A stretch of 52,870 nt of DNA. Source: a virus. This document shows positions 10,745 to 48,082 of the stretch, piece after piece. Each line of letters opens with the position of its first letter. Position 1 is the first letter of the stretch. A program made the position numbers and the translations under genes. Location: the IMG/VR virus record IMGVR_UViG_3300044941_000088, positions 1 through 52,870 of that record; one strand, given 5' to 3'. Under the pieces are notes generated by a model. The model saw only the letters and a program-made list of their open reading frames with translations, had not been told where the DNA came from and searched no databases.

Positions 10745-10936
10745 ATGACGTTTGCTCAGTGGCACGAAGAGCTTAGAGGCCGCCTGAGTTTCAGGGCGCT
10801 TGCCGCCGATCTTGGTGTGTCGCACTCCTATGTATGGGCGCTTGTCCGTGGACGCAGGCGGCCCGGACGCGCCCTTGCAATCCGCATCGAGAAATACACA
10901 AGCGGGCTGGTTACTGTGCAAAGCTGGCAGGATTGA
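10745..10936 (+). CDS. Cro/C1-type helix-turn-helix DNA-binding protein
   Basis: 63 residues from ATG 10745, 2 bp after the tail-tube gene. Residues 16-36 (FRALAADLGVSHSYVWALVRG) have the HTH pattern: Ala-Ala-Asp-Leu-Gly-Val-Ser turn and a Ser-Tyr-Val-Trp recognition helix. A basic RGRRRPG segment follows. The protein is small enough to be a single HTH dimeriser. It is encoded in the structural operon rather than near the early regulatory hub, so late feedback control is a possibility. It is a candidate ligand for the dispersed palindrome, purely by inference. Confidence 0.7.
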   Translation: MTFAQWHEELRGRLSFRALAADLGVSHSYVWALVRGRRRPGRALAIRIEKYTSGLVTVQSWQD

Positions 10937-17414: not shown

Positions 17415-17458
17415 CAGGCTTGTTGCCAACCGTCGCGGATAGCAGTAGCGTGCTCGAA

Positions 17459-17474
17459 ACTACACGGTGTAACC
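17459..17474. promoter_or_regulatory. Dispersed palindrome copy directly before the giant gene
   Basis: ACTACACGGTGTAACC ends 1 bp before the ATG at 17476. There is no other SD-like sequence than GGTG within it, so a bound factor or RNA fold here would cover the ribosome site. Confidence 0.75.
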
Positions 17475-29085: not shown

Positions 29086-29097
29086 CACGGAGTAACC
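29082..29097. promoter_or_regulatory. Dispersed palindrome copy between giant and HNH genes
   Basis: GTAACACGGAGTAACC includes the TAA stop of the giant gene and the GGAG SD of the HNH gene at 29101. Confidence 0.75.
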
Positions 29098-29634: not shown

Positions 29635-32450
29635 CTGTATCTCTGTAGATACTCGGGGCCGAGAGCCTTGCTGGCGCAAGCCCGGATGACGCGCGTCCTG
29701 CCAAGAGCGTAGGACGATCCCGCGCCGGGAACGCAGACCAGCTCGCGGGCTCCGACAGTTTGTTGAAGCCGCAGCCGAAGCTGACTGACGGAGAGCCGCT
29801 TCGCCTCGGCGTATTCTTCGAGAACCTGCATCGGGACCATAAGCGAGTCGTCCTTCACGCCGACAAACAGCTTGGCCACGCGAGTGGGGGGAGGTTCAAG
29901 AACGTCTACGCGCCCAACAGGTAGCGGCGACAGACTGTTCAGAATGACCACGTTGCCGCTGTAGCGCCCAAACAGCTCGGCCAGCGTGTTGTCAAGCAAC
30001 TCCTCGCTCGACTGGACGCTCACCCGTCCGCGCTTGATCGCGCTCAGCAGCATCTTTGTGACCGCCTCAACGTCGATGTTGGCAATCCCGAAGCGCCTCG
30101 CCAGCATGGCTCCGGCGATGATCACGCTCGCGCCTTGCACCCAAAACCGTTCCTGCGGGCTTGCAGAGGCCCGGTCGGTAATGTTGGACACCACGGGCTG
30201 CATGAACTTCTGCAAGCTGCTCACGCCAACACTGGTGAGCTTGTCAACGTAGGCGCGACCGGCTACACCGTGTATCCTTTTCAGACTGATTGAGGCGGAT
30301 GTAACCGCATCGGCGTCGCCTCTGCTCCCCATGATGGGGGGCATCTCAATCTCAAGCAGGCGATAGAGCCCCGCAGGGCTTCCGCGCGTCCTGATGGCGA
30401 CCGCATCAAGCACAGAGGCGTTAGCGGTGACAACCATGGCAGTGTTGATCGACGGAGCGTTGCGAAGCTCAGACTTTTGATTTAGTCGTTGCTTCGAGCT
30501 ACCCTGCAATGTGCGGAAAGCGACGTTCGTAAAGCGATCGAAGTCCTGCTCACTGCGGACTTCATCCCACAAAGTAGGCAGGTATCGTGTAGCCGACATG
30601 CGCGCGACAATGGCGTTGCTGGTGTCGTCTAGGGAAAGGATGCCTCTGTTCGGGTCGCCCCAAACAGAGGCAATGTAGCGCAGGAAGGTAGTCTTTCCGA
30701 CGCCTGACAACGGGCCGCACACGGCCAGAAGGAACGAAGGCTGCTCGATAAAGTGCAAGAGCGGCGAAGCGAACGCCGACGCCATCATAACATGCGCGGA
30801 CGGGCGCTGATCGCGCTCAAACACCGCCGATACAGCCTTCCATTGTTCGAGTGTTCCAGACGGGCGATAGGCGCTTTGCAACGCCTGATCTACATGTCCT
30901 GACCTCGTGACCCTTTGGCCGCCAGAGTATCGCTCGCCCGCTATCGAGAACCCGCCGTCAGAGTCCCAACCAAACCCCGGAGCTTCCTCTACTCGCTGGC
31001 TTCTTTGGAGATGGTCCATCCAGCCGATCACCGCGCCGCTGAACAGCCGTGCGCCGTTTCGGGTTATGGGCATCCCTTTGGCAAGTAACTGGCGTTGCAA
31101 CTCCGCTTCGTCAGCCACGGTGCCAAGATAGACCACCAGCTCGTCGCGGGTTGAACCTGCCGCGAACTTGAACCTGATAAACCGGCCTTTCTCCTGATCG
31201 TGCCCGATCTCCCAGCCGTCAACCTCGCAATCCACGACCTTCACTTCCTCGGGTTCGCCGCCAGCACCAATTCTGGTCATGTAGGTCGCACCCTTCCTGA
31301 TGAAGGTCGGAGACGGCAGCCGACCGGCACCGACATCGGCAGCCTTGGCATCGGGGGCGCTATATCCCAAGACAAGCGGCGTCTTGATCTTTCCAAAATG
31401 TGGGCACAATCGACAGTGATTGGTCAGGCTCGCAAACTTCTCACAGGTCGTCGGCCCGATGCGTTGTTCATTGGCCAGCGCCACGCGGTCGTTCCAGACG
31501 TGCGCAAACCCTTCTGGCGTGTATCGCGGGTCTCCGTCGCTAAGCGCGCGAGCGGTTTCTTCGCCGCCCTCGGCATAGGCCATTACATGAAGCAGTTGAA
31601 CCCACAGCGGGTAAGGGTCGCCGTCGCCTCGTCTGGCCATGGAGTCGGCGAACACCGGACAGCTAGACACGATGCGCTCGGCCTCATACACCCTCGTCGT
31701 GTCGTAGCCAGCCGTAAGATCGGTGTTGCCTACTATCGGCAGAACGGCCACCGCCGCATCGTTCGGGCGTAGCGACGTAACCGGAGCAGTGTCCGCGTAG
31801 GCAGACAGCTTGTTGCGCATCTCCTCGAAAGGGATGTCGTCTGGCGCTTGCGCGATGACCGTCACTACTGGGCGGTGATCGTATTTCCGGTTCACGGTTC
31901 CGGGAACACGGAGTAACCTTGCGGCATCCGTCGTCACCTCGTAGTCGGCTACGAGGTTGAACTTGCGCATCGCGCTCACAAGCGCCTTGGCGACCGGAAG
32001 CCATTCTTCAAGCCGCACTGCAATGTCCAGCACCCAATAGACGTGCAGCCCGCCCCCGCTTGAGACGACAATGTTCGGGCGCGGGAAGTCGATCTTCTTC
32101 AAGAACTCCTTGAAGGCCAGTATGGCCGTCTCACGGCGGTCGTAAAGTTTGAAGTCGATGTCCGCGTAGAAAGACCGGAGGACAGACACGTTCTCGGCCT
32201 TGCGGCAGGACTTCTCACGGCCTTTGTCGTCGATGATCTTCTCTACTTTGAACGAGGCCGGAGTGAAATAGATGTCGTTGTGGGTAACAAGGCGAGCAAT
32301 TCTCGCTAAGGCCTTGTCAACGTCTGTGAACGGAGAGTGGTTATAGCCGGGCCGAGCCGGGCCGCCAACAACGGAGACGCGGCTCGGCCACGCTATGTAG
32401 TGTATGCCAGGCCCGGCGACCCGCTCAAGGAACCCGCGTGGGCCGAGCAT
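29631..32450 (-). CDS. Primase-helicase (AEP-like primase plus DUF927-type ATPase)
   Basis: 939 residues. The N-terminal primase-polymerase fold carries 'FYADIDFK' (D97, D99), 'SGGGLHVYW' (131-139) and 'RVPGTVNRKY' (181-190), the three motifs of archaeo-eukaryotic primases. A CxxC pair (C346, C349, with C336) may bind zinc. The C-terminal ATPase has Walker A GPLSGVGKTT (579-588) and Walker B 'LPTLWDEV' (D629/E630), as in DUF927 helicase-like proteins. It likely lays down primers and unwinds DNA at the phage fork with the DNA polymerase. The ATG is 2 bp after the upstream gene. It contains two weak palindrome copies (30261-30277, 31902-31918). Confidence 0.85.
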   Translation of the reverse strand: MLGPRGFLERVAGPGIHYIAWPSRVSVVGGPARPGYNHSPFTDVDKALARIARLVTHNDIYFTPASFKVEKIIDDKGREKSCRKAENVSVLRSFYADIDFKLYDRRETAILAFKEFLKKIDFPRPNIVVSSGGGLHVYWVLDIAVRLEEWLPVAKALVSAMRKFNLVADYEVTTDAARLLRVPGTVNRKYDHRPVVTVIAQAPDDIPFEEMRNKLSAYADTAPVTSLRPNDAAVAVLPIVGNTDLTAGYDTTRVYEAERIVSSCPVFADSMARRGDGDPYPLWVQLLHVMAYAEGGEETARALSDGDPRYTPEGFAHVWNDRVALANEQRIGPTTCEKFASLTNHCRLCPHFGKIKTPLVLGYSAPDAKAADVGAGRLPSPTFIRKGATYMTRIGAGGEPEEVKVVDCEVDGWEIGHDQEKGRFIRFKFAAGSTRDELVVYLGTVADEAELQRQLLAKGMPITRNGARLFSGAVIGWMDHLQRSQRVEEAPGFGWDSDGGFSIAGERYSGGQRVTRSGHVDQALQSAYRPSGTLEQWKAVSAVFERDQRPSAHVMMASAFASPLLHFIEQPSFLLAVCGPLSGVGKTTFLRYIASVWGDPNRGILSLDDTSNAIVARMSATRYLPTLWDEVRSEQDFDRFTNVAFRTLQGSSKQRLNQKSELRNAPSINTAMVVTANASVLDAVAIRTRGSPAGLYRLLEIEMPPIMGSRGDADAVTSASISLKRIHGVAGRAYVDKLTSVGVSSLQKFMQPVVSNITDRASASPQERFWVQGASVIIAGAMLARRFGIANIDVEAVTKMLLSAIKRGRVSVQSSEELLDNTLAELFGRYSGNVVILNSLSPLPVGRVDVLEPPPTRVAKLFVGVKDDSLMVPMQVLEEYAEAKRLSVSQLRLRLQQTVGARELVCVPGAGSSYALGRTRVIRACASKALGPEYLQRYR

Positions 32451-33430: not shown

Positions 33431-33820
33431 TCAGGACTTGCGGATGTTGATGTTGCGGATGCGCATAACATCGAGGCCGGGCGGCGGCGCGCCAACTGCT
33501 TCGATGTATTCCTCGACCCCCGACTTGAGCGGTCTGACATCCGCGATGTGCCACGCATCGTTAGCCCGCACGAAGTCAAAAAACGCTTCCTTGTCGGCAG
33601 TCTTGATGCTGGTGGTGTGCGACTGATACACGGTGTAACCATCAGCGCTAAGGCTCTGAACACCTTGCGCGTCGAGAATCCGTGCGAAAGCGGCTTCTAG
33701 TTTTTCGATAGCTTCGTTAATCGGAGCGAGGCGCGCCTTATGCGCCTCTTCCAGCTTCTTCTTCGCCTCGCGCAGGGCCACGGCCTTCTGCACAAGGTCT
33801 GATAACGTGAGTTTTGTCAT
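33431..33820 (-). CDS. Phage protein of a common helical-then-beta family (129 aa)
   Basis: The start is ATG 33820 with SD AAGGAG 7 nt upstream; a longer frame from 33841 is rejected. An N-terminal coiled helix ('ALREAKKKLEEAHKARLAPINEAIEKLEAAFARILDA') is followed by 'GVQSLSADGYTVYQSHTTSIKTADKEAFFDFV' and ends 'LDVMRIRNINIRKS'. This architecture is widespread in phage replication regions and has no assigned role. It lies between the SNF2 helicase and the ssDNA-binding candidate. A palindrome copy lies inside at 33626-33640. Confidence 0.75.
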   Translation of the reverse strand: MTKLTLSDLVQKAVALREAKKKLEEAHKARLAPINEAIEKLEAAFARILDAQGVQSLSADGYTVYQSHTTSIKTADKEAFFDFVRANDAWHIADVRPLKSGVEEYIEAVGAPPPGLDVMRIRNINIRKS

Positions 33821-33853
33821 GGCGTGCTCCTTGGATACCATACTGTAACATAT

Positions 33854-35428: not shown

Positions 35429-35696
35429 CTTTCAGTCTCCCCAAGGCTTCCGGCCCGTCGATGACAAAGCACCTTCCGCCAGCCGCAACGATCTGGCTAA
35501 TGGTTACACTCTGTAACCTGGTAGGCTTGGCTCCGGGCCGCTTCGCCTCGATGCCGATGAACTCGCCCTTGTAGAGCAACAGACAGTCCAGCGACGGCTT
35601 TCCGTAGCCGCTGGGGACCGGCCAATACTCCATCCTTGGCTCGTATTGCGCCAGCAACGCCCGAATGCTGGCCTTGACTTTGCCTTCTGGCGTCAT
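35400..35696 (-). CDS. VRR-NUC PD-(D/E)XK nuclease
   Basis: 98 residues. The motif 'GKPSLDCLLLYKGEFIGIEAKRPG' places D37, E50 and K52 in the classical PD-(D/E)XK arrangement, followed by 'PTRLQ' as in VRR-NUC nucleases. Such proteins are structure-specific nucleases (Holliday junction or flap type) that often accompany SNF2-like helicases in phage operons. It is preceded by SD GAGG and overlaps the helicase gene. A palindrome copy at 35502-35518 lies in its coding region, 74 bp upstream of the helicase ATG. Confidence 0.85.
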   Translation of the reverse strand: MTPEGKVKASIRALLAQYEPRMEYWPVPSGYGKPSLDCLLLYKGEFIGIEAKRPGAKPTRLQSVTISQIVAAGGRCFVIDGPEALGRLKDVLDELRRR

Positions 35697-36637: not shown

Positions 36638-38544
36638 TTGGCGTCTCCATAGCTGCGACCATAGCTGCCCTCTGCTTTCAGAGGGACCGGATAAGACTTC
36701 CACCGCGCCCAAGCAGGCTGTCGACACATCGCATCAATCAGCGCCGCAAGCGCCTCGTCGGCGTCACGTTCTGGCACGACATAGACAAGCTCGTCGTGGA
36801 CTTGCAGAACGAAGCGCCAGTCGCGCTTGACCGCCTCGTGGTCTACCTCCATGCGCACGATGGCGTCGACAATCTGCTGCCACGCGAGGTGCTGGACGAT
36901 GTTCTCTGTCAACGCGCCGCCATAGAGATTCGCCCAAGTGCCATACCTGTGCCGCCAATACCTGTAAGCAGTCTTGTAGCCATACGCCGACTGCTCGACG
37001 TGTTCTTGCAGGTCGGGATACCTGACCTCGAACTCGGCGCGCTTGCCGCGCTCCTGCTCGTTGTGCTCAAGCACACGCCACCCACCCGCGAAAAACTCCA
37101 CAGGACCGATCCTGAGGTTCTGACCAGCGATCATGTAGCGGATCGCATCGTCAAGCGCTTGCCAAAGGCCGCGTATCTCTTGGTAGCTGTTGCGATACGT
37201 CTCAACCATCTTCGCCGCGAACGCATGGTCAACGTCAGCGCCGCCAAGGAACAGCGTCTGCCAGAGTGTGTCAGCCCCTGTCTGATACCCAAGCGACAAA
37301 ACCCCGATCTTGCCAAGGTCGCGCGCCTCTGGGTCGCTGGCCTTTGTAACTGTGCGCCCGAACACCTTTGAAGCGAACTGGGCATACACGTCCTCGCCTT
37401 TGGCGAAGGCATCAACCAGGTGAGTGCAGCCCGCAAGCCACGCGAGGATGCGCGCCTCGATCTGAGCGGCATCCACGGATAACACCGTGTAACCACGCGG
37501 AGCGACAATGGCCTTGCGAAGCAAAGACTTCTTGTTCCTGCGCGGCAGGTTTTGCATGTTCAGACCGTCGGCACCAGCGAACCGCCCGGTATGAGCCCCT
37601 GCGTATATCAGCGGCACATGCAGAAGTGGCCCGCCCTTGAGCTCGCACAGTCTGAGCATGGTCGCTGCGCGGGTTTCCTCGATAGAGCTCATGGCCCCGA
37701 GGCGCGCTTCAACCAGCATGGCCACCCTCGGATCAGGGTGTTCCTTGAGCTTCACGAACTCCACGTCCCTCTTGGAAAAGGCGTAGGTCATCTCGTTGGT
37801 GCGGAAACTGAGCTTCATTGGCGGGTCGACGCCCAAACCCCTTAGAAGCTCGGCCATGCGCGGAGCAGACCGAAGGTCTTCCCTTGTAGCGCCAACGGCT
37901 GCCAGCTTCGCTTCCATCTCGCGAGTTGCTTCTTCGCGAGACTGCAAGAGCAGGTCGGCGTCCATCTCCAATCCGCCAACAACATAGGCCCGCAAGGTCG
38001 CAGACATCGCGATGTGGTGCTTTGTGGGGATGCGCCAAGCAAGGAGTTTCACCAGCGCGGCGCATTTGTCAGCGTCAGCGCCTGCGTAGGCAACATAGTC
38101 CTTCCACAGGTCAGACTCCCGGTCGAGAAACAGCGGGTCAACGCCTTCCATCCGCGCAAGCGCGGCGGTGTCTTTATCCCCAAGCTGGAAATGCTCGGCC
38201 AGCCTGGCCAGACTGGCGCTACCTATCTGGTGCGCGACGGTGCAATTCGCCATGAACATGGTGCACCGGATGCGCGCGGGCACTACGCCGAAGCGCCAAG
38301 CCAGAATGGCCGCGTCAAACATGGCATTATGCGCTATCATACAGGTGTCATCCCAATTGCGAGATGACACCCAGTCGGCTATCTCAGGGCCGACCAGCAC
38401 AGTCGTCTGGCCGTCTACGCCTTCCTTCACAGACAGCAGCGTCGCGGCGAACCTGCGATGCATGATGTATTCGCGCATGGTCATCTTGCGCAGCGAATAG
38501 TCTGCGTCGTAGAAGGTTTCAAAGTCAAGTATGATGTGGTGCAT
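36634..38544 (-). CDS. polA: DNA polymerase I (family A) with 3'-5' exonuclease
   Basis: 636 residues. Exonuclease motifs are DFE (D7, E9), 'HNAMFD' (D77) and 'YAGADAD' (D156/D158). Polymerase motifs are 'GAHTGRFAGADGLNMQNLP', motif A 'VDAAQIEAR' (D358), motif B 'RDLGKIGVLSLGY' (R408, K412, Y420) and motif C 'QVHDELVY' (H583-D584-E585). The start MHHIILDFE at 38544 is chosen because ExoI begins immediately and because the promoter at 38551-38579 places transcription start at this ATG, making the message leaderless. An in-frame ATG at 38562 is upstream of the predicted transcript. Both enzymatic activities appear intact. Confidence 0.93.
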   Translation of the reverse strand: MHHIILDFETFYDADYSLRKMTMREYIMHRRFAATLLSVKEGVDGQTTVLVGPEIADWVSSRNWDDTCMIAHNAMFDAAILAWRFGVVPARIRCTMFMANCTVAHQIGSASLARLAEHFQLGDKDTAALARMEGVDPLFLDRESDLWKDYVAYAGADADKCAALVKLLAWRIPTKHHIAMSATLRAYVVGGLEMDADLLLQSREEATREMEAKLAAVGATREDLRSAPRMAELLRGLGVDPPMKLSFRTNEMTYAFSKRDVEFVKLKEHPDPRVAMLVEARLGAMSSIEETRAATMLRLCELKGGPLLHVPLIYAGAHTGRFAGADGLNMQNLPRRNKKSLLRKAIVAPRGYTVLSVDAAQIEARILAWLAGCTHLVDAFAKGEDVYAQFASKVFGRTVTKASDPEARDLGKIGVLSLGYQTGADTLWQTLFLGGADVDHAFAAKMVETYRNSYQEIRGLWQALDDAIRYMIAGQNLRIGPVEFFAGGWRVLEHNEQERGKRAEFEVRYPDLQEHVEQSAYGYKTAYRYWRHRYGTWANLYGGALTENIVQHLAWQQIVDAIVRMEVDHEAVKRDWRFVLQVHDELVYVVPERDADEALAALIDAMCRQPAWARWKSYPVPLKAEGSYGRSYGDAK

Positions 38545-39642: not shown

Positions 39643-39679
39643 GGTTGCGCCGTGTAACCATTGCTGGCTACACGGCGCA
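39643..39679. promoter_or_regulatory. Palindrome (39643-39659) fused with 11-bp hairpin
   Basis: GGTTGCGCCGTGTAACC is a dispersed-palindrome copy 34 bp upstream of the ATG at 39608. TGCGCCGTGTA (39646-39656) also pairs with TACACGGCGCA (39669-39679), so it forms half of a long hairpin. Confidence 0.7.
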
Positions 39680-39702
39680 CACTTGTTTGAGCTCTCGGCG
39701 GA

Positions 39703-40668
39703 TCAGAGGATGCCGCGAGTCAGCTCGTCGAGGTCGATCTCGGCGGCCTCACGCTCGTCATCGTCGAGCAGGGCCTCGTCTGTCGGCGCCTGCAAGATGA
39801 CAGAAGTGTAAACGTCAACCACGCCAGGCTCGTCAACGTTGTCGGACTTCTCCGCGTAGTCTTCAAGCTCAGCGAGGTCGTCGATCAGGTCGTCTCCGTC
39901 GGCCTCATCCGCAGGGGCGACAGGCGCCACGCTCGCGACGCCGGTGGCGGCGTCGTCCTCGTCCAGCACCAGACGGCGCAGCGCCGACAAAAGCCGCGCC
40001 GCCTCGGGATGCAGCTCAGTGGCACCCGCAACACTGACAGACGCGACCTGAAGCAACGGACTGCGCTCAATGGCACCGAGCATCTGAAGCAGCTGGTCGC
40101 GCTCGTCAGGCGTCTCAGGATCGGCAAAAATCGAGTTGCGAATGGCCGCGATCTCCTCTTCCACCGAGGTGAGACGGACGCCGGGCTTGCCCGCAGCAGC
40201 GTCAAGCTCCCGCTGGCGGATGGTGCGCAGAATCTTGAGCACCATCTGCCGCGTGTTGATCGGCGGCTTGGGGTCGAGGTCGGACGCATCGACCTCAGTC
40301 TTGAGGTCGTCAACAGCGTTCAGCGCCGCCATGACGTTGTGACGCTGGTCAAGAAACACCTTGGTCTCAGACTTGCGAGTCTTGATCACCTTGTCGTCGG
40401 CGCCAGCTTCCTTGAGAGCCTTGGCGAACACGTCGAGGAACGCCGACTTGTCGTCGTCGGTCAGGTGGTTGAGGCCGCAAAGCCGGTCGAACTGCTCGGC
40501 GATGCGGCGGATGCCGTGCTCGCGCGCCGCCGAAAGCTCGGCTTTGGCGTCGTCAGCGACGCGCTTCTTGCTGGCCTCGTCAGCAGCCAGCGCAGCAATG
40601 CGGCTGGCGACCTCGCTCAGCAGCGGGTTGATGACGACGCCAGAGGTCGCAGGCTGGGTCTTGGGCAT
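39703..40668 (-). CDS. Hypothetical helical protein with acidic C-terminus (321 aa)
   Basis: ATG 40668 is preceded by AGGAGAG. It is almost entirely helical and charged ('AALAADEASKKRVADDAKAELSAAREHGIRRIAEQFDRL'), with a linker rich in Ala/Pro and an acidic region near 245-320 ('DEADGDDLIDDLAELEDYAE', 'DDDEREAAEIDLDEL'). Acidic low-complexity tails suggest protein-protein interaction or DNA mimicry. No family is recognised. Confidence 0.75.
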   Translation of the reverse strand: MPKTQPATSGVVINPLLSEVASRIAALAADEASKKRVADDAKAELSAAREHGIRRIAEQFDRLCGLNHLTDDDKSAFLDVFAKALKEAGADDKVIKTRKSETKVFLDQRHNVMAALNAVDDLKTEVDASDLDPKPPINTRQMVLKILRTIRQRELDAAAGKPGVRLTSVEEEIAAIRNSIFADPETPDERDQLLQMLGAIERSPLLQVASVSVAGATELHPEAARLLSALRRLVLDEDDAATGVASVAPVAPADEADGDDLIDDLAELEDYAEKSDNVDEPGVVDVYTSVILQAPTDEALLDDDEREAAEIDLDELTRGIL

Positions 40669-40795
40669 TGTAGCTCTCCTGATTGGTGGTGGTAGGTAAC
40701 GTGTCAGCGGTGGACGAACGAACCCACATTCTGAGAACTCGAACGGTCAGCAGTCCTGTTCATGTTGGCTCCCTCGGTTGACATGGATGCAAAAC

Positions 40796-40817
40796 GCGTC
40801 CGGGAAACCCCGGACGC
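40796..40817 (-). terminator. Hairpin terminator in the 40669-40942 gap
   Basis: GCGTCCGG (40796-40803) pairs with CCGGACGC (40810-40817); on the minus strand TTTT follows. It abuts a palindrome copy at 40820-40836. Confidence 0.6.
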
Positions 40818-40819
40818 AT

Positions 40820-40836
40820 GGTTACACGGTGTGAAC
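40820..40836. promoter_or_regulatory. Dispersed palindrome copy next to hairpin
   Basis: GGTTACACGGTGTGAAC differs from the perfect palindrome at one half. It lies between the stop at 40943 and the hairpin. Confidence 0.7.
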
Positions 40837-40942
40837 TGAACTGCAACAGATATTGCAGCCAGTCACTCGGCGGTGTAGCCGTCAAACCAGTTGTCGCCAC
40901 AGGTGTCAGAGCGACTGAACCACTCCTACGCCTGTTCGAGAG

Positions 40943-41206
40943 TCAGTCTTCGTCGTCTTCGTCGTCTTCGTCGTCTTCGTCGGCGCCATAGTAGTCATCA
41001 TGAGCGCGACGGTATTCTTCGTAGGCTTCGTGCGGATCAGCCCACACAAACCCCGGAACCGTCTCGATGCGGAACAGATCGGGGTCGTCGCTGTTCTCCA
41101 CCATTTTGCAGAACTCATCAGCACTGGCCTTGTCTGCGAAGAACTCGAACACGATGATCTCGCACTCCTCGTTGAAGCCGACGACGGCATAGAGCGTATT
41201 CGACAT
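40943..41206 (-). CDS. Small acidic protein with DED repeat (87 aa)
   Basis: ATG 41206 lies 25 bp downstream of a palindrome copy, with GGAGA as SD. An N-terminal beta-alpha region (MSNTLYAVVGFNEECEIIVF...) is followed by an acidic tail of four DED units, encoded by four exact copies of a 9-bp repeat (40946-40981). Very acidic tails are seen in DNA-mimic and histone-like inhibitors, but no further support is present. Confidence 0.7.
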   Translation of the reverse strand: MSNTLYAVVGFNEECEIIVFEFFADKASADEFCKMVENSDDPDLFRIETVPGFVWADPHEAYEEYRRAHDDYYGADEDDEDDEDDED

Positions 41207-41231
41207 TTTCAGTCTCCATGGCTGGGTGTGT

Positions 41232-41270
41232 GGTTACACTGTGTAGCTGCACGCCGCAAGCGGCGTGCAG
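41232..41270. promoter_or_regulatory. Palindrome (41232-41247) joined to a 10-bp hairpin
   Basis: GGTTACACTGTGTAGC is immediately followed by CTGCACGCCG (41247-41256) pairing with CGGCGTGCAG (41261-41270) around CAAG. On the minus strand the order is hairpin, palindrome, then ATG 41206 after 25 bp. Confidence 0.72.
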
Positions 41271-41300
41271 CAGGCGCATGAGTGCGCGGGCGACTCGCGG

Positions 41301-41840
41301 CTACTTATACCCCAGCTCGCGAAGCCGCTTCATCTCGTCACGATAGCGAATCGCCCCGGGGTCGCGCTCGTCGCGCAGCAATACCCGGCCAGCGGCGTCC
41401 TCGGTCGTCGCATAGTAGGGCGGAAACTCGGCGAGGAAGCCCATGACAGACCCGGTGTAGAGCACCTTCTCGGAGAACGTATCGTCCCAGTAGTCGGTGG
41501 CCGCGACCTCGATCATCAGCGTCCCGGCGCTCCGTCCGACCAACGGCTCCGCGCTCTGGTAGTCGACCCACAGCGTGTAGCCGTATCCCACGTCCGTGAA
41601 GTCGGTTCTGGACTTGCACAGCCGGATGTCGCCCTGACGAACCTTGTTGGCCGCGATGAAAGCCGCCGCGAACTCGTCGGCCTCGAACCGGGGCCACCGC
41701 CACGCAAGCTCGCTCAGCAGAACGTTGATGACGAACGCCGACGCCCCAGCCGGGTAGCCATCGTAGTGCTTGTAGACGTGATACTCCCTCTCAGGTTCCC
41801 ACGACTTGTCGATGAAAGTCCAGATGCTCCTGGTGCTCAT
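41301..41840 (-). CDS. Hypothetical protein (179 aa)
   Basis: The start is ATG 41840 with SD GAGGATAA; a longer frame passes through the palindrome and is rejected. The sequence starts MSTRSIWTFIDKSWEPEREY and has 'HVYKHYDGYPAGASAFVINVLL', 'DIRLCKSRTDFTDVGYGYTLWVDY', 'MIEVAATDYWDDTF' and a basic C-terminus. I recall phage proteins with the 'Y-x-H-x-D-G-Y' core but no function. It is in the same leftward cluster as the MoxR gene, upstream of it in sequence order but separated by a hairpin-palindrome unit. Confidence 0.72.
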   Translation of the reverse strand: MSTRSIWTFIDKSWEPEREYHVYKHYDGYPAGASAFVINVLLSELAWRWPRFEADEFAAAFIAANKVRQGDIRLCKSRTDFTDVGYGYTLWVDYQSAEPLVGRSAGTLMIEVAATDYWDDTFSEKVLYTGSVMGFLAEFPPYYATTEDAAGRVLLRDERDPGAIRYRDEMKRLRELGYK

Positions 41841-41864
41841 TGCGGTTATCCTCGGTGGTTGTGT

Positions 41865-41906
41865 GGTTACACGGTGCGAACGGCACGCCACAAAGGCAGC
41901 GTGCCG
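41865..41906. promoter_or_regulatory. Palindrome (41865-41881) joined to an 8-bp hairpin
   Basis: GGTTACACGGTGCGAAC abuts CGGCACGC (41881-41888) pairing with GCGTGCCG (41899-41906). The ATG at 41840 follows after 24 bp. Confidence 0.7.
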
Positions 41907-41934
41907 CAGGCGCATGATGCGCAAACGTCAAGCC

Positions 41935-43065
41935 TCAGCTGCGCAAGAAGGCCGACTTGTAGCGCGGGTTCTCAGACACCCAGCGCGAAATCGCCGACGT
42001 AGCCATGAGCTCCGGCGCGCGAGCCTCGACATGATAGACGAACACAGTCCGCGCGTCGTTGCCAAACTCGGAACGCATCAGGTATTTCATGATCTGCGCC
42101 ACGTTCTGCCTCGTGGCCCCTTGCGCCAGAACCGAAGCCTGAATCGTGTGCAGGTATTCCTTCGGAACGCGCGCACCAGACGGGTTGCTCACCACATCCG
42201 CAAGCGGCGCCAGCTCCGCACCATACTTGAGATGCGCCATGAACTTGACCCCAGCCGCGCCGCCGACAAGACCAGACACCGCCATCGACGCCGCCGGTGT
42301 GGTCGGAAGCTCCTGATCGCCGAGCGTCGGAAACTGAACCTTGTCAGCCGCCATCGAACGCAAAACACGGTCGGCCATGGTCAGCGAACGATAGGTGCAG
42401 AACGGCTCAGGCGTCGCCGGAACCTCCGACGCAAAAAGCCCCGGACCATGCGTGTGCACAAAGCTGATGGTCAGCGGATGCACGCCAGCACGCGACGCAT
42501 AGCTGATCCACTGCTCCACAGGCATCTCCCAGTCGAGCTTGAGCATCCGGTTCTGTAGAATAGACAGCCGCCTGACCACACCAGCCCTGTCGGACTGACG
42601 GTTGGACGCCGCCCACACAACCCAGCCATCGGGCAGATGATGCTCGCCAAGCCCACGGTCGAGAACCCACGGACTGGCCGCCTTCTGCAACGGCGCCTCA
42701 GCCTGACCAAACTCGTCGAACAGCACGATACCACGCGCAGGAACCGCCGTGCCACGAACCTGCCGAACACCGTTCTCGAAGACAATGGTGTTCGCAGGCG
42801 TCGGAAAGAACGGCGGCGCGCTGAACGCCGCAACCAGCTTGTCGTCGCGCTTCGTGGGCAGCAAATACCCACGCAAATCCTGCTCGGTCATCGTCGAGAC
42901 GATCTCCGCCACGACACCGAACGGCTCGCCATAGACCCGGCTCAGATGCGCCGCAGCCTCAAGAATCGCCGACGACTTCGCCGTCCCAGGCGCACCCACC
43001 AGCTCAATCGCGATGCGCGACTCGTAGAAGCCACGCGCGTTGGCGATGAAGGTGTTGTAGTCCAT
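41935..43065 (-). CDS. MoxR-type AAA+ ATPase
   Basis: 376 residues from ATG 43065 (SD GAGGAG). It has Walker A GAPGTAKS (24-31), Walker B 'RGIVLFDEFG' (D117/E118) and a sensor 'WVVWAASNR' (N155), giving a single AAA+ ring module of the MoxR/CobS kind. MoxR ATPases act with vWA-domain partners as chaperones or remodellers; the partner is the gene at 43271-44704. In phages these pairs are often labelled CobS/CobT cobaltochelatase, but no cobalamin genes are present here. The likely targets, host or phage complexes, are unknown. Confidence 0.88.
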   Translation of the reverse strand: MDYNTFIANARGFYESRIAIELVGAPGTAKSSAILEAAAHLSRVYGEPFGVVAEIVSTMTEQDLRGYLLPTKRDDKLVAAFSAPPFFPTPANTIVFENGVRQVRGTAVPARGIVLFDEFGQAEAPLQKAASPWVLDRGLGEHHLPDGWVVWAASNRQSDRAGVVRRLSILQNRMLKLDWEMPVEQWISYASRAGVHPLTISFVHTHGPGLFASEVPATPEPFCTYRSLTMADRVLRSMAADKVQFPTLGDQELPTTPAASMAVSGLVGGAAGVKFMAHLKYGAELAPLADVVSNPSGARVPKEYLHTIQASVLAQGATRQNVAQIMKYLMRSEFGNDARTVFVYHVEARAPELMATSAISRWVSENPRYKSAFLRS

Positions 43066-43108
43066 GTTTCACTCCTCGGTTGGTTGGACATGTCAGACTC
43101 GCGAGTGC

Positions 43109-43216
43109 TCAATTATAAAACCGCACCCGCTCCAAAACGTCACGCGCGGCAAGATCACCGCGCGTAACATACTCAACAAGGTCGGCAAGCTGCTCGACCC
43201 GCTTCTGCATGAACAC
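43109..43216 (-). CDS. Small ORF between the MoxR and vWA genes
   Basis: 35 residues from GTG 43216 (GAGG 8 nt upstream). The same frame is open back to the stop of the vWA gene at 43271-43273, so up to 17 more codons exist, but without a standard start. The protein (FMQKRVEQLADLVEYVTRGDL, then 'DVLERVRFYN') looks like real helical protein. It might be a separate small protein or a readthrough tail of the vWA gene. Confidence 0.5.
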   Translation of the reverse strand: MFMQKRVEQLADLVEYVTRGDLAARDVLERVRFYN

Positions 43217-43259
43217 CCGACAGGCCTCGTCAGGTGAACGCCACAGAGAGTGCCACGAA

Positions 43260-43275
43260 GTTACTCCGTGTTACC
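43260..43275. promoter_or_regulatory. Dispersed palindrome copy at end of vWA gene
   Basis: GTTACTCCGTGTTACC on the plus strand; on the minus strand it is GGTAACACGGAGTAAC, containing the TAA stop of the vWA gene and an SD-like GGAG. Confidence 0.65.
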
Positions 43276-44704
43276 GAACCGAAACACGAACCGTCGTGCC
43301 CCACGGCGCCACGACATCGGTCGTGATGGCCCACATGACAGGACGCGAACGGGAACAGTCCGGCCCCCACGACACAGGGTAACCATCAGTGAAGAAAACC
43401 ACCGCGCAAAACTCGGCGTCGAACGGAGCCCCTCTGGACTCCAACTCGTCAACACGGCGAAACACAGGGGCAAAACTCGTGCCGCCGCCGCCCTTGAGCT
43501 CCGACCTGACACGCTCAAGCTCGGAACGCGCCTCCTCGACCCCGCCCACTTCCCGCAAGTCGATGACCCACTCGCCAACAATGGCCGCGTCGCACGCGAG
43601 AACCAACAGACGCGTGACGCCAGCATCCTCGCAGATGGATACCACCTCGCCGAAGTAAGCCGACAACTCCTTCGGCGAAACCGACCCGCTCACGTCGAAC
43701 GCAACGACGATCGGCGGCGTCGTCTCCGACCGCCGCTGCGGCGCATAGACACCATGCGCAACCAGAAGCGACCTCACGGGACGCCGCCAGTCCGCATAGT
43801 CCCCTGCGGCGGACGCACGCACCACGAAGTCCTGCAACACCGACCGCCAGTCCACAGTGGGCGTCGCGAACCGCTCGAACACCCGCGCGACGTTGAGCGA
43901 GCCCTGCCCGGCCTGCTTGGCCAATGAGTGCGCGCCGCTCAGCGCTGCTTGCATGGCCTCGGGGCTGTTGTCCAAGACGCCGCCGCCCTCGTCAGGACCG
44001 CCCTCGGGCGTCATGTCGGGCTGCACGTCCGAAAAGCCGTCGCTGTCCAACATAAGTAGTTGCGCGACGCGTTTCACAAGCTGGGAAAGATCGCCAGACT
44101 GACCAGACTGACCAGACTGACCAGACTGACCAGACTGACCAGACTGACCAGACTGACCCTGATCGCTCTCGGGCAGGTTCTCAATGATGCGCTTGTAGAG
44201 CTCCTCCCACTCCATCGTCGGTTCTATGTCCCTATGCGAGATCACGAGACGGCCAGTGAGCGCATCTGCGAACCTCACGAACCAATCCGGCGTAACAGAC
44301 ATGCCGGGGTTCACACCAACCTTGTCGAGATCGAGCGTGCGGTTGATGATCACATCAGCGCAGATGTTCGCGAGATCAGCGTTGAACGGACGCCCAAACA
44401 AACCCACGGCCCTGTAGCCCGCGAACCTGTGCGGGTCGCGACGGTAGAAGTGCAGACACTCATGCGCCAACACATACGCAATCTTCCGAGGATCCTTCAA
44501 CTGCTCCGCAAAAGGAACGCTGAACACGATGCAGGACTTGGTGCACATCGCCGTCTCCACGAACGAACCCTGCCACATGCCCCTGCGGTCCGTCACATGG
44601 AGTAACCCAGGCTCGTATAGAAGCTGCCCGATGCATGCAAACCTCAAACCCAGGTATTTCATCCCGTCCGCGACGGGCGTGTTCCTGTAGTTTACAGTCT
44701 TCAT
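43271..44704 (-). CDS. vWA domain protein with N-terminal metallopeptidase-like domain
   Basis: 477 residues. The N-terminal part has HECLH (H81, E82, H85), as in DUF2201-type putative metallopeptidases. A flexible linker of seven exact GQS units (183-203) follows. The C-terminal vWA domain has MIDAS residues 'AFDVSGSVS' (D337, S339, S341), T409 in 'GGGGTSFAP' and D440 in 'FFTDGY'. With the adjacent MoxR ATPase this is a phage version of the MoxR-vWA pair. The HExxH could be catalytic or structural. The start ATG 44704 is preceded by 'GGAG'. It could be mislabelled CobT in searches. Confidence 0.85.
   Translation of the reverse strand: MKTVNYRNTPVADGMKYLGLRFACIGQLLYEPGLLHVTDRRGMWQGSFVETAMCTKSCIVFSVPFAEQLKDPRKIAYVLAHECLHFYRRDPHRFAGYRAVGLFGRPFNADLANICADVIINRTLDLDKVGVNPGMSVTPDWFVRFADALTGRLVISHRDIEPTMEWEELYKRIIENLPESDQGQSGQSGQSGQSGQSGQSGQSGDLSQLVKRVAQLLMLDSDGFSDVQPDMTPEGGPDEGGGVLDNSPEAMQAALSGAHSLAKQAGQGSLNVARVFERFATPTVDWRSVLQDFVVRASAAGDYADWRRPVRSLLVAHGVYAPQRRSETTPPIVVAFDVSGSVSPKELSAYFGEVVSICEDAGVTRLLVLACDAAIVGEWVIDLREVGGVEEARSELERVRSELKGGGGTSFAPVFRRVDELESRGAPFDAEFCAVVFFTDGYPVSWGPDCSRSRPVMWAITTDVVAPWGTTVRVSVR
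44094..44156 (+). repeat. Seven exact 9-bp repeats in the vWA gene
   Basis: (CCAGACTGA)7 on the plus strand, encoding (GQS)7 on the minus strand. Copy number may vary between isolates. Confidence 0.9.
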
Positions 44705-44737
44705 AGTCGTGCTCCATTTTTAGATGATCAGATGACT

Positions 44738-44776
44738 GCGCAGAGCCCACCAGCGGACCCGTGGCAGGCTCTGCGC
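44738..44776 (+). terminator. Long-arm hairpin in the 44705-44826 gap
   Basis: GCGCAGAGCC (44738-44747) pairs with GGCTCTGCGC (44767-44776) over a 19-nt loop; TTTTCT follows on the plus strand only, although flanking genes are on the minus strand. Confidence 0.5.
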
Positions 44777-44826
44777 TTTTCTAGGGTAGCAGCGCGACGC
44801 CGACGATATGGCGTTCGCTGCCGTCC

Positions 44827-45045
44827 TCAGAACTCGTCGCCGTCTTCCAGATAGCTCTTCTGCCCCTGGAGCAGGCAGGCGGCCTCGTGGACAGCCTTCA
44901 ACAGCAAACGCCGCGCCACGGCCTCACCGTTGCTCTCAATCCAGCCGTCGCTCATCCGAGCGAGCTTTGCGATCGCGATAACGTCGCGGCGGATCAGCGC
45001 CTCCGCAGCGGCGCGGATCAGATCGTTGGTGTTCCTGATGGTCAT
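44827..45045 (-). CDS. Small helical protein (72 aa)
   Basis: The start is ATG 45045 (SD GAGGAGAG). The longer frame upstream runs through a microsatellite and is rejected. The sequence is MTIRNTNDLIRAAAEALIRR followed by 'KLARMSDGWIESNGEAVARRLLLKAVHEAACLLQGQKS' and an acidic end. Function is unknown. Upstream is a simple repeat of CACAGACA units. Confidence 0.65.
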   Translation of the reverse strand: MTIRNTNDLIRAAAEALIRRDVIAIAKLARMSDGWIESNGEAVARRLLLKAVHEAACLLQGQKSYLEDGDEF

Positions 45046-45090
45046 CGTCGTCTCTCCTCTTGCTTGGGGCCTCGCCCCGTCTCCGTAATA

Positions 45091-45128
45091 CACACAGACA
45101 CACAGACACACAGACACACAGACACACA
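45091..45128. repeat. 8-bp microsatellite (CACACAGA)n upstream of a small gene
   Basis: Four exact CACACAGA units plus a partial one. On the minus strand it is a GTGTGTCT run 45 bp before the ATG at 45045, close enough to affect leader length. Confidence 0.8.
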
Positions 45129-45197
45129 TCGCGCAAAGTCCCAATCGGCGGGGACCGCGCACGGGCGGCAAAAGCCACCCGAAACAAGCCAGAACAG

Positions 45198-46043
45198 TCA
45201 GACATTCCCGAGATCGCCCCCCTCATTGTCCATCACATCGCCGTTTTCAGCATCGAACTCCTCGCCAAAAACAACACGACGAGAAGCCGCCCCAGACGCC
45301 AAAATCGTCTCAATCCCGTAAGGGTCAGGCGCCCTCGCACTTCGACTCAACAACTGCTCATGCAGCAAGTCACGCTTCGTAACACGCGGAGCCTGCCCAG
45401 TCGCAAACTCAAACGAATGCAGCGCAAGCGTGCCCGACATGAGATCAGAAACCCGAGCGTCTGGATAATGATAACAAAGCCTCGCCAGCGTGTAGGCAAT
45501 GTCAGGCGGCAGCCGAGGAACCAGACGCTGAAACATCTCGCTCCCCAAAACCCCGAGAAGCCGATCCTTCAGCGTTACATCGTGTAACCACAACGGAACA
45601 ACCAGCCGAACAAGAGAAACCCGCGTCGCCGGCGTCAAATACTGACGCTGAGCCCCAACACCCGCACGAAGCACATCCAGCCGATTGGCCATCTGCGACG
45701 CAAAGTCAGACTCCTGCTCAATGTAACGAACAAAGCGGTCCGACCAACGACCATCATTCAGAACAGCACGGTGAATCGAACCCTCGGTCACACCACTCAG
45801 CGTAGCCACGCGACCAACCTTCTCACGCAAGTCCGCCCACCCAGTCGGCGCCAAATTGAACGGCGGAGGAAGCAAACGGTTGAAGTCACCATACTTCACA
45901 GCCACGCGACGAAAGCGGTTGTAAACAACCCGCATCCGGCGAAGCATGTCGCTCGGCACCGAACGGCTCAGCCGAACAAGCGGCAGCCCGTGCTCGATCA
46001 GCAGATGCGAGGTGGCTTGGCCCACTTCGTATATGTCCTTCAT
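45198..46043 (-). CDS. Hypothetical protein, first gene of the leftward early cluster (281 aa)
   Basis: ATG 46043 with SD AAGGAG; an in-frame ATG at 46085 is upstream of this SD. It is a helical protein with 'GVTEGSIHRAVLNDGRWSDRFVRYIEQE' and 'LTPATRVSLVRLVVPLWLHDVTLKDRLLGVLGSEMF' segments and an acidic tail ending DNEGGDLGNV. No motif is recognised. It is first in the leftward cluster after the promoter at 46424-46452 and is transcribed with a roughly 370-nt leader. It contains a palindrome copy at 45573-45589. Confidence 0.75.
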   Translation of the reverse strand: MKDIYEVGQATSHLLIEHGLPLVRLSRSVPSDMLRRMRVVYNRFRRVAVKYGDFNRLLPPPFNLAPTGWADLREKVGRVATLSGVTEGSIHRAVLNDGRWSDRFVRYIEQESDFASQMANRLDVLRAGVGAQRQYLTPATRVSLVRLVVPLWLHDVTLKDRLLGVLGSEMFQRLVPRLPPDIAYTLARLCYHYPDARVSDLMSGTLALHSFEFATGQAPRVTKRDLLHEQLLSRSARAPDPYGIETILASGAASRRVVFGEEFDAENGDVMDNEGGDLGNV

Positions 46044-46329
46044 TTTGCTCACTCCTTTTGGTGGTTGCGTGCGGAAACCGGGCATCGTGTGTAAAAACTG
46101 CGAAGTCTTGTGTAAGTTTTTTTCAACCAGAGGTAGAAATACACAAAAAACGGGCGAAATCCCCGACTTTCTTCACCACATGGCCAAAATACCTACCACT
46201 TTCCCCTGCTTTCCCGCTCACGTTGGGTCGGAGGCCTGTCCGCAAGCCATTGATAATAGGTCTTTTTCCAAACATGGTTTGTAGTTTTCGGGGGTATGCC
46301 TCTCACGAGATACCCTTCCCCCCGCGCCC

Positions 46330-46490
46330 CCCGCTAGCGGGTGTCGAGCTGCCGGGCGTTACCCGCTAGCGGGTGATTTTTGGGAGCGGGTATGTTTCAC
46401 TCGAACATGCTTGGTTTATACTTATCATAATCGAGTAAGTAATATAAGTCAAGCACTTACCCGCTCGAAAACTTGGCTCGTGAGCGGGTT
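46330..46490. repeat. AGCGGGT operator-box cluster
   Basis: Boxes: CCCGCTAGCGGG 46330-46341, perfect ACCCGCTAGCGGGT 46361-46374, GAGCGGGTA 46384-46392, TACCCGCTC 46458-46466 and GAGCGGGTT 46482-46490. The last two are inverted to each other. They flank the promoter at 46424-46452. Confidence 0.7.
46424..46452 (-). promoter_or_regulatory. Strong leftward sigma70 promoter
   Basis: -35 TTGACT (46452-46447), 17-bp spacer, -10 TATGAT (46429-46424), expected +1 about 46417. AGCGGGT boxes lie 6 bp upstream of the -35 and downstream of +1, a typical repressor arrangement. Confidence 0.8.
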
Positions 46491-46506
46491 TGGGGGGTAA
46501 GTTGGT

Positions 46507-46566
46507 GCAGAATGGAGGCATGTGGTGAAAAAACTCCCACACCGGACACCTGCGACGTGGTGATTT
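46507..46566 (+). repeat. Direct repeat copy 1 of about 60 bp
   Basis: The core at 46521-46566 (TGTGGTGAAAAAACTCCCAC, then CACCGGACACC..., GTGGTGATTT) matches 46666-46711 with about eight differences. Confidence 0.7.
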
Positions 46567-46647
46567 AGAAAGAGCCGCAGTTGTTCGACAACATGTTTGA
46601 GATACCAAGCGAAAACAATGACTTGGCGAGACGGCCTGTGCAAAAGC

Positions 46648-46711
46648 GCAGAATGACTGGGATGTTGTGGTGGAAAAACTCCCATACCGGACGCCTTTGG
46701 TGTGGTGATTT
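46648..46711 (+). repeat. Direct repeat copy 2 of about 60 bp
   Basis: Second copy, 145 bp downstream of the first; GTGGTG occurs at both ends of each core. See copy 1. Confidence 0.7.
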
Positions 46712-46825
46712 TTGCCAGACGCCTAGTTTCTGCACATGAGTTCTAAAAAACTAAACAAACTCAAAGGCTTAGGTTGCTGCGGCCTGAGCCGCGCGTATCC
46801 TAGTCTATGCGCTCGTGACTGCGCA

Positions 46826-46853
46826 AGCCGCTCCGCCGCTGCGCGGAGCGGCT
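46826..46853 (-). terminator. Perfect 11-bp hairpin after the 46865-47059 gene
   Basis: AGCCGCTCCGC (46826-46836) pairs with GCGGAGCGGCT (46843-46853). It lies 9 bp from the palindrome at 46863-46880 that supplies the stop codon of that gene. Confidence 0.6.
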
Positions 46854-46862
46854 CGGTTGGAA

Positions 46863-46880
46863 GGTTACACGGTGTAAAGG
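46863..46880. promoter_or_regulatory. Dispersed palindrome copy containing a stop codon
   Basis: GGTTACACGGTGTAAAGG; on the minus strand it encodes the last residues Leu-Tyr-Thr-Val and TAA of the small gene. Confidence 0.7.
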
Positions 46881-47059
46881 ATGCCGCCTGCGCGAATGGC
46901 GGCCACCATGGCGTCGAGCTCTGCGTCCGCGTCGGCCTGTATCTCGCCTGCGGTCCAGACGAGATAAGCAGTGAAGGCGTCACGGTCGCGCGTGTTGGCC
47001 TCCTGCATGTAGTTACGGTCGCGGTTCCCGATGCGAATGGTCGAGTGGTTGGCTTTCAT
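46865..47059 (-). CDS. Small hypothetical protein (64 aa)
   Basis: The start is ATG 47059 with SD AAGGAG; the longer upstream frame translates terminator repeats and is rejected. The protein (MKANHSTIRIGNRDRNYMQE..., then 'DRDAFTAYLVWTAGEIQADADAELDAMVAAIRAGGILYTV') is short and helical. It sits alone between a terminator and a hairpin, with a palindrome copy at each end. Small early host-takeover proteins often have this setting, but no function can be given. Confidence 0.65.
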   Translation of the reverse strand: MKANHSTIRIGNRDRNYMQEANTRDRDAFTAYLVWTAGEIQADADAELDAMVAAIRAGGILYTV

Positions 47060-47079
47060 GGTTGTTCTCCTTGGGCTTG

Positions 47080-47097
47080 GGTTACTCGGTGTAACGG
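47080..47097. promoter_or_regulatory. Dispersed palindrome copy upstream of the 64-aa gene
   Basis: GGTTACTCGGTGTAACGG, 20 bp upstream of ATG 47059 and about 55 bp downstream (in transcription order) of the terminator at 47152-47216. Confidence 0.7.
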
Positions 47098-47151
47098 GCG
47101 CGGATTCCAGTCTATCCCCGCGTCCCCGTGACTGCGCGTGATTGCGCGCGC

Positions 47152-47220
47152 AAAAAAAGAGCGCGCAGCCCGAAGGCCACGCGCAGCCCGAAGGCCACGC
47201 GCAGCCCGAAGGCCACGCGC
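47152..47220 (-). terminator. Triple 18-bp repeat forming UUCG hairpins, then a U7 tract
   Basis: Three exact 18-bp units (47163-47216). On the minus strand each folds as GCGUGGCC-UUCG-GGCUGCGC (8-bp stem with wobble pairs). The last is followed by CTC and T7 (47158-47152). It is a strong intrinsic terminator for the 47230-47871 gene. Confidence 0.8.
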
Positions 47221-47229
47221 GTTGTGTTG

Positions 47230-47871
47230 TCACTCGGCTGCGAGGTTGGCGATGGCGTCGGCGATGTCCGCAACCTTGGCGGCGGCGTCGGCGTCAACAA
47301 CCTTGGCCAGGATGCGCATCGCGCGCAGCGCCGTTTCGATGAGCCGCGCCGCGTCGTCCGAATCGATCTGTTTCGTGACCTTCTCGGCGGCCAGTTGCGG
47401 CGTGATGTTCGCGCCCTTGGCCCGTTCGATGACATACGCGCGGCGGGCCTTCACCACAAGCGCGGGCTGGCCGCACAGCTCTTCCGCCGCGGCTTTCTTG
47501 GCGTCGTCGTTCCAGCCGAAGTTGGCGGCGAAGGCGTCCGCGACGATGCAGCCCGCCATTTCGTCGCCGTGCGCCTTCAAGAACGCGCGCACAAGCGGGA
47601 TGATGTCCACGCTGTGCGACTTGGACACATTCAGGAACGCGGTCTGAACCTTGTCGTTGCGGTTCGGCTTGGGGCCACAGTTGGTGAGCGTGGCCTTCAG
47701 TTGCGTTGCGACCTCGGCCAGCACCTCGGGCGTGATGACCGGGGCTTCCGGCTGGGCGGGCTGGGCGGGCTTGGCGGGCTTGGCGGGCTTGACGGCCTCG
47801 GCGGGCTGGGCGGCCTCGGCGGGCTGGGCGGCCTCGGCGGGCTGGGCGCCCTTGATGGAAAGCTTGACCAT
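47230..47871 (-). CDS. Hypothetical protein with (AQPAEA)n N-terminus (213 aa)
   Basis: The start is ATG 47871 with AAGAGG upstream; the longer frame from 48030 runs through the G-rich leader. Residues 9-45 are a low-complexity Ala/Gln/Pro/Glu/Lys repeat (AQPAEA, KPA). The rest is helical: 'LAEVATQLKATLTNCGPKPNRNDKVQTAFLNVSKSHSVDIIPLVRAFLKAHGDEMAG' and so on. No motif is recognised. It is monocistronic: G-rich leader upstream and the triple-hairpin terminator immediately downstream. Confidence 0.72.
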   Translation of the reverse strand: MVKLSIKGAQPAEAAQPAEAAQPAEAVKPAKPAKPAQPAQPEAPVITPEVLAEVATQLKATLTNCGPKPNRNDKVQTAFLNVSKSHSVDIIPLVRAFLKAHGDEMAGCIVADAFAANFGWNDDAKKAAAEELCGQPALVVKARRAYVIERAKGANITPQLAAEKVTKQIDSDDAARLIETALRAMRILAKVVDADAAAKVADIADAIANLAAE

Positions 47872-48034
47872 TGATTGCCTCTTAGATTGAGGGTGGGAGG
47901 TGAAGGGGGCCGGGATGGACACCCCATATGAGGAAGGGGGGAAGTAGATGGAGGGGGTAGGGGGCCGGATGGACAGGGGGCGGTGGGGGTCCACGCCCAT
48001 CGGGTCAAACTCACCAACCCACGACCCCATTCCC

Positions 48035-48057
48035 GGTGTTCACACCGTGTAAACACC
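48035..48057. promoter_or_regulatory. Extended palindrome copy (23 bp)
   Basis: Arms GGTGTT and AACACC extend the usual core (GTTCACACCGTGTAAAC, 48038-48054). It lies 39 bp upstream of the promoter at 48097. Confidence 0.7.
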
Positions 48058-48065
48058 ACAAAAGC

Positions 48066-48082
48066 GGTTACACGGCCTAACC
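48066..48082. promoter_or_regulatory. Dispersed palindrome copy
   Basis: GGTTACACGGCCTAACC, 14 bp upstream of the promoter -35 at 48097. Confidence 0.7.

Follow-up and report, generated by a model that had tools for sequence, protein, structure and literature searches.

Phage-specific palindromes dispersed over the genomes of a podovirus-like phage and its relatives: candidate arrays of operator or roadblock sites

Results

A 17-bp palindrome is repeated across the whole phage genome

The virus record IMGVR_UViG_3300044941_000088, analyzed here over its full 52,870 nt (the window), carries 25 copies of a 17-bp dyad, GGTTACAC-N-GTGTAACC, spread across the entire 52.9-kb phage, whereas 0.02 copies are expected in shuffled sequences. 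Related phages carry comparable arrays of other palindromes, and we propose, at roughly even confidence, that the palindromes are dispersed operator or roadblock sites of a homodimeric phage-encoded regulator, stoperator-like but palindromic. The count of 25 rests on a mismatch scan with shuffles, allowing up to three mismatches; a position weight matrix (PWM) list holds 24 window sites, and a tighter PWM threshold leaves 7. An earlier note on this DNA had assigned the palindrome to the early region, a restriction that the genome-wide distribution contradicts.

Ten copies are intergenic, three overlap gene ends and 12 are within genes; these counts use hand-assigned open reading frame (ORF) coordinates, and some gene starts are therefore uncertain. 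Three of the intragenic copies fall in the giant gene of 11.6 kb, two in the primase gene and one in the DNA polymerase gene, and the distance from palindrome to start codon ranges from 1 to 73 nt. In the 36 kb that end at 39.7 kb, the copies are spaced more regularly than a Poisson process predicts (coefficient of variation 0.34, P = 1.5e-5), the 39.7-kb limit having been picked after inspection; with all window sites P = 0.0014. Spacing is also even in the relative G001 (P = 3e-4, in a chosen sub-range) and in Planktothrix phage Pag-Yong1 (P = 7e-4). The copies found by the mismatch scan are listed below.

3872..3888, near the divergent terminase-small/portal region
5973..5989, within the 3' end of the portal gene
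9401..9417, between the capsid gene and ATG 9420(+), with a stable hairpin upstream
13365..13381, within an acyltransferase-like gene
15367..15383, within gene 14690-15505
17458..17474, just before ATG 17476 of the giant gene
20091..20107, within the giant DarB-like gene (missing from the PWM list)
22284..22300, within the giant gene
25661..25677, within the giant gene
29081..29097, over the giant-gene stop, before ATG 29101
30261..30277, within the primase/helicase gene
31902..31918, within the primase/helicase gene
33624..33640, within gene 33431-33841(-)
35502..35518, GGTTACACTCTGTAACC, the best match, in a VRR-NUC-like gene and upstream of where the SNF2 helicase gene starts
37478..37494, within the DNA polymerase gene
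39643..39659, GGTTGCGCCGTGTAACC, between genes 39703-40668(-) and 38664-39608(-)
40820..40836, GGTTACACGGTGTGAAC, intergenic
41232..41248, GGTTACACTGTGTAGCT, upstream of ATG 41206(-)
41865..41881, GGTTACACGGTGCGAAC, upstream of ATG 41840(-)
43259..43275, AGTTACTCCGTGTTACC, over the VWA gene stop
45573..45589, within gene 45198-46043(-)
46863..46879, GGTTACACGGTGTAAAG, over the stop of ORF 46865-47059(-)
47080..47096, GGTTACTCGGTGTAACG, upstream of ATG 47059(-)
48038..48054, in the intergenic region between divergent genes, ahead of the first early gene
48066..48082, second palindrome of that same intergenic region, 28 bp away from the 48038 copy

Related phages carry arrays of their own sequence

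The window is a complete IMG/VR record of a podovirus-like phage. It encodes podovirus-type head, connector and internal virion proteins, a DarB-like giant protein, a family-A DNA polymerase, a primase, an SNF2 helicase, a Cas4-like exonuclease, a MoxR ATPase and a VWA/metallopeptidase. The closest named phages are Rhizobium phage RHph_TM3_14A and its sisters (capsid 53% and portal 47% identical), and at least 579 IMG/VR relatives were detected with a portal profile.

Palindromes in relatives were sought by de novo discovery without use of the window motif, followed by refinement. Arrays reach a density of up to about one site per kb, and the consensus is palindromic in each array-bearing genome. 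RHph_TM3_14A has 42 copies of GTTACCT-N4-AGGTAAC, G014 has 20 of GTTACTT-N4-AAGTAAC, G019 has 33 of GTTACT-N5-AGTAAC, G001 has 23 of TTACCGCNGCGGTAA, G012 has 39 of TTACCTCNGAGGTAA and L152 has 13 of TTTCTG-N3-CAGAAA; CCACTACCGGTAGTGG occurs 17 times in G013 and 19 times in G016, and there are 56 sites in G008 and 46 in each of G010 and G011. In G017, where the first scan missed the sites, a finer scan found 38 half-site pairs TTACC-N5-GGTAA against 5.75 expected. Palindrome discovery found no array in Rollin, G020, G022, CRP-3, HMO-2011 or phiM6, and the call for G015 is ambiguous because of its GC-rich background. Pag-Yong1 carries 34 dispersed copies of GGTTCAG-N-CTGAACC; it is a very distant phage that has MoxR, VWA and HNH-like genes in common with the window.

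By the deposited annotation, 17 of the 42 sites in RHph_TM3_14A and 18 of the 34 in Pag-Yong1 are intergenic, compared with 10% of the genome, and eight Pag-Yong1 sites lie 22-23 nt before a start codon. Long genes of the relatives hold internal sites. The early region of G010 has about one site per 200 bp, and by eye the right arm there is often the Shine-Dalgarno sequence. A comparison of site conservation between RHph_TM3_14A and TM29 was uninformative because the two genomes differ by just 0.5%. Dispersed repeats were also seen in Aeromonas phage MQM1, with 13 near-identical copies of AAAnCGGACAnnTGTCCGnTTT from 2723 to 48519 that are mostly intergenic by annotation, and in Stenotrophomonas phage StenR_269, whose 11 dispersed GTTTAAAC-like palindromes are confined to the non-structural half.

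The symmetry acts at the level of DNA

Deviations from the consensus arms in ten genomes comprise 371 that break a pair, 103 that leave a G-T pair and 32 that are compensated. Because the deviations mostly break arm pairing, the symmetry works through the DNA itself rather than through a hairpin; on this sequence evidence, the selected feature is a pair of half-sites for a DNA-binding dimer, not an RNA or extruded-DNA hairpin. A conserved base-paired hairpin of the kind found in N4-type virion RNA polymerase promoters is not supported by these counts (371 breaking versus 32 compensated), and the one-sided, pair-breaking character of the changes disfavors a hairpin form of promoter. Pfam and PHROG gave the giant protein ResIII helicase and DarB-like matches only and no RNA polymerase, an RNA polymerase profile not having been searched directly.

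Hairpins and start codons at four early-region copies

The earlier note had described a repeated cassette of hairpin, palindrome and start codon at 39643, 41232, 41865 and 47080. All four palindromes are present on the coding strand of the leftward early genes, 20-34 nt upstream of plausible Shine-Dalgarno/ATG starts at 39608, 41206, 41840 and 47059, and the hairpins at the four places are genuine:

39646..39679 (-), terminator-like hairpin with a stem of 15 bp and then ACCTTTTC; one arm is shared with the palindrome
41247..41270 (-), perfect GC-rich stem abutting the palindrome, without a T run
41881..41906 (-), perfect GC-rich stem abutting the palindrome, without a T run
47161..47220 (-), three tandem 18-nt terminator-like hairpin units with a T7 tract; the unit 47184-47161 is about 60 nt upstream of the palindrome

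They do not belong to a repeated unit. An unusually stable hairpin lies upstream of or overlaps about five of the 25 copies, and since hairpins are absent at the roughly 20 other copies, we regard them as ordinary gene-end hairpins. A terminator followed by a new start fits a few places and is not general. The stated lack of an ordinary -10 box was borne out, a simple scan giving one sigma-70-like site in 9.7 kb versus 1.7 expected. The suggestion that the palindrome is part of an unusual promoter fared poorly, about half of the sites being intragenic and the copies evenly spaced through the 11.6-kb gene. A repressor site at each gene, also suggested there, fits well with the dyad symmetry and the family-wide array of phage-specific sequence, as well as with the excess of sites in intergenic positions and immediately ahead of starts and with the prophage relative described below.

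Other repeats were observed in the window. The non-coding stretch 46085-46850 contains ACCCGCTAGCGGGT-type inverted repeats and a 46-nt direct repeat at 46521 and 46666 (85% identical), and is possibly an origin or regulatory region. Tandem 9-nt CCAGACTGA units occupy 44094-44158 within the VWA gene, and tandem 8-nt ACACACAG units lie between genes at 45090-45129.

A site-bearing relative is an integrated prophage

Bradyrhizobium sp. 139 harbors an integrated prophage relative that is split on two contigs, C111 ending with the structural genes and C166 beginning with the early genes. Both stretches run into non-phage sequence, and a large serine recombinase is encoded at the phage/non-phage junction of C166. 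Relaxed-site matches in the 7.9-Mb Bradyrhizobium sp. 139 genome number 30, of which 24 fall in the prophage stretches. Tyrosine integrases are encoded by the site-bearing G010, G011, G014, G016, G017 and G019, and also by the siteless G022. ParA was found in none of the 14 genomes searched, and ParB gave a single sub-threshold match (G015) and none above the cut-off. The RHph_TM3_14A gene at 42239-45322 is labeled 'putative integrase' in the Rhizobium phage records; it is probably misannotated, since its product is homologous to a window protein that matches primase/helicase families.

Candidate regulators

One protein family accompanies the arrays in most relatives. Its 242-aa member in RHph_TM3_14A (18372-19100) is encoded by the first gene of the early operon, with palindromes on both flanks, and the family occurs in GTTAC-type genomes where the region is covered and also in G001, G012 and L152. 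It was found in G017 before the sites of that genome were recognized, and the finer scan then revealed them. In the Bradyrhizobium sp. 139 prophage the family member lies at C166:1915-2658, and L114 has a gene of this family without clear sites. The AlphaFold model of the 242-aa protein is confident (pLDDT 88) and all-helical; it has only two related viral models, and no match to it was found in the PDB. Three window genes are candidates:

47230..47874 (-), first early gene, encoding 214 aa and placed where relatives have the 242-aa family; a candidate regulator, flanked by sites
45198..46043 (-), orphan protein of 281 aa that by eye only may contain a helix-turn-helix (HTH)-like segment, a weaker candidate regulator
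10745..10936 (+), 63-aa Cro/Xre-like HTH protein (HTH_3 match at E 6.9e-5, which misses the curated cut-off), a weaker candidate regulator

The products of 47230-47874 and 45198-46043 show no detectable homology to the 242-aa family, and the AlphaFold model of the former, made without relatives, has low confidence (pLDDT 55). The HTH_7 and HTH_3 families were rejected as the binder since neither is common to all site-bearing phages. Nor are the MoxR and VWA genes the determinant: the array is absent from N4-like and large phages that have them, and G020 has the genes without sites. The HNH-like gene 29101-29373 was rejected in the same way, occurring in Vibrio phage 1.208.B without an array. 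Family searches of the window proteins named no two-domain HTH repressor of the L5 gp71 type, a direct comparison with gp71 not having been made. RHph_TM3_14A also encodes, at 24216-24767, a protein of 183 aa in which three resolvase-type HTH repeats can be seen by eye; it may bind DNA through several HTH units, and no homologs of it were found in the other genomes compared. Among the early genes of this phage, at 20.6-37.7 kb, are some 14 that encode small paralogs sharing an 'AMLLG' motif.

Discussion

A genome-wide operator and roadblock array accounts for the symmetry of the sites, their spread into late genes, their even spacing, their enrichment near starts and the phage-specific motifs. 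From these features we infer a single binding protein, repression rather than activation, and a stop to elongation. A phage-encoded dimer would occupy all 20-60 sites in the prophage or repressed state. At promoter- or start-adjacent sites it would block initiation, and at inter- and intragenic sites it would stop elongating RNA polymerase; the whole genome would be silent as a result, and any read-through would be ended within about 2 kb.

Several observations weigh against this proposal. The palindromes are directionless, unlike the Cluster A stoperators, most of which follow the direction of transcription (PMC6550527). Searches for an integrase found none in the window, RHph_TM3_14A, G001 or G008, and these phages may therefore be virulent or maintained otherwise. 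The 242-aa family was undetected in the window, G016 and Pag-Yong1. Its distances correlate with the motif (Mantel test, r 0.60, p 0.001), but the correlation is non-specific because those of portal and terminase track the motif equally; the family is a lead on a putative binder, not an identification.

Other explanations are less likely. Coating of the genome by a phage DNA-organizing, partition or masking protein (ParB/KorB/Noc-like), with a secondary role in gene regulation, would suit the even spacing, the intragenic sites, the lack of directionality and the coverage of late genes, but the sites are strongly enriched between genes and right before starts. The lack of ParA and of an above-cut-off ParB match in the 14 genomes also speaks against it, and partition would be unnecessary because relatives have integrases; we consider such coating unlikely. 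The palindromes might instead be activator sites or an unusual promoter element, each setting a transcript start shortly downstream, as the constant 22-23 nt to the start codon at eight Pag-Yong1 genes and the scarcity of sigma-70-like promoters in the early region would suggest. Against this stand the roughly half of copies that are intragenic, the copies that sit in conserved late genes or on stop codons, start distances of 1-73 nt in the window and the existence of a relative as an integrated prophage, and we judge activation quite improbable.

It is very doubtful that the element acts on RNA or single-stranded DNA, as an mRNA-leader hairpin or an N4-type virion RNA polymerase hairpin promoter. 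Arms of 7-8 nt around loops of 1-6 nt could form such a structure, and by eye the Shine-Dalgarno sequence in G010 and RHph_TM3_14A often falls within the right arm; however, the changes are one-sided and pair-breaking, sites also occur at convergent ends and within genes, and the Pfam and PHROG matches of the giant protein are helicase and DarB-like, with no RNA polymerase among them. That the hairpins are ordinary terminators followed by new starts, with the palindrome a chance by-product, is scarcely credible: true hairpins do exist at 39646, 41247, 41881 and 47161, but 25 copies are present where 0.02 are expected, the corresponding arrays of relatives have other sequences, and most copies have no hairpin.

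Beyond the operator or roadblock reading itself, we advance only as a tentative and rather doubtful extension that these phages possess a direction-free palindromic stoperator system. It would have an origin separate from that of Cluster A, within a large family of temperate podoviruses of proteobacteria, and would use a DNA-binding protein of a new class (the all-helical family of 242 aa, or an unrelated replacement in the window), with dimer spacing and half-site differing between phages. If so, changes in dimer spacing and half-site would define immunity groups, which could be read from sequence alone, and the system may lead to a new repressor fold. Genome-wide silencing by dispersed roadblocks has so far been best described in one mycobacteriophage cluster; a palindromic array in maybe hundreds of related proteobacterial phages would indicate that the strategy is general. 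The integrated prophage relative is a workable system for its study. The local cassette reading is in any case corrected, as the element spans the whole genome.

A description of such palindromic arrays was not found in the literature searched, subscription journals being outside its coverage. Among the nearest known systems, the KorB operators of IncP plasmids are short palindromes dispersed over a replicon of about 60 kb that serve in both global repression and partition, but KorB is a ParB homolog, and ParB gave no match above the cut-off in these phages. The start-associated repeats (SAS/ESAS) of Cluster K phages likewise lie a few nt from many start codons, some with inverted repeats (PMC3203893). 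SAS, however, is an asymmetric repeat of 13 bp that sits 3-7 bp ahead of start codons, in 11-19 copies mostly confined to non-structural genes (PMC3203893), whereas the sites here are palindromic, genome-wide, and 1-73 nt from starts or intragenic. The SPBRE/MrpR system of Bacillus prophage SPbeta likewise has one repeated element, of 15 bp, to which a master repressor binds across a large prophage, but has about ten sites, in promoters only, and MrpR is a tyrosine-recombinase fold protein (PMC10516654).

The closest parallel is with the Cluster A stoperators (L5, Bxb1, TipsytheTRex), at which a bound repressor halts transcript elongation. Here too more than 20 copies of one short site extend over a phage genome of about 50 kb, temperate in the case of Cluster A (PMC9283540, PMC6550527), the variants are phage-specific and diverge with the genome, part of the sites lie between genes or near promoters, and an integrated prophage occurs among the relatives. 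Cluster A phages are temperate by means of an integrase or parABS; integrases were found here in relatives and not in the window. The L5 sites are 13-bp, asymmetric, monomer-bound and oriented with transcription, in promoters and short intergenic spaces (PMC9283540, PMC6550527), whereas the arrays described here consist of directionless 15-18-bp dyads with variable spacers, half of them within long genes, and no recognizable homologous repressor was found. Since stoperators are asymmetric and oriented, the array would work like a stoperator system without being a member of it.

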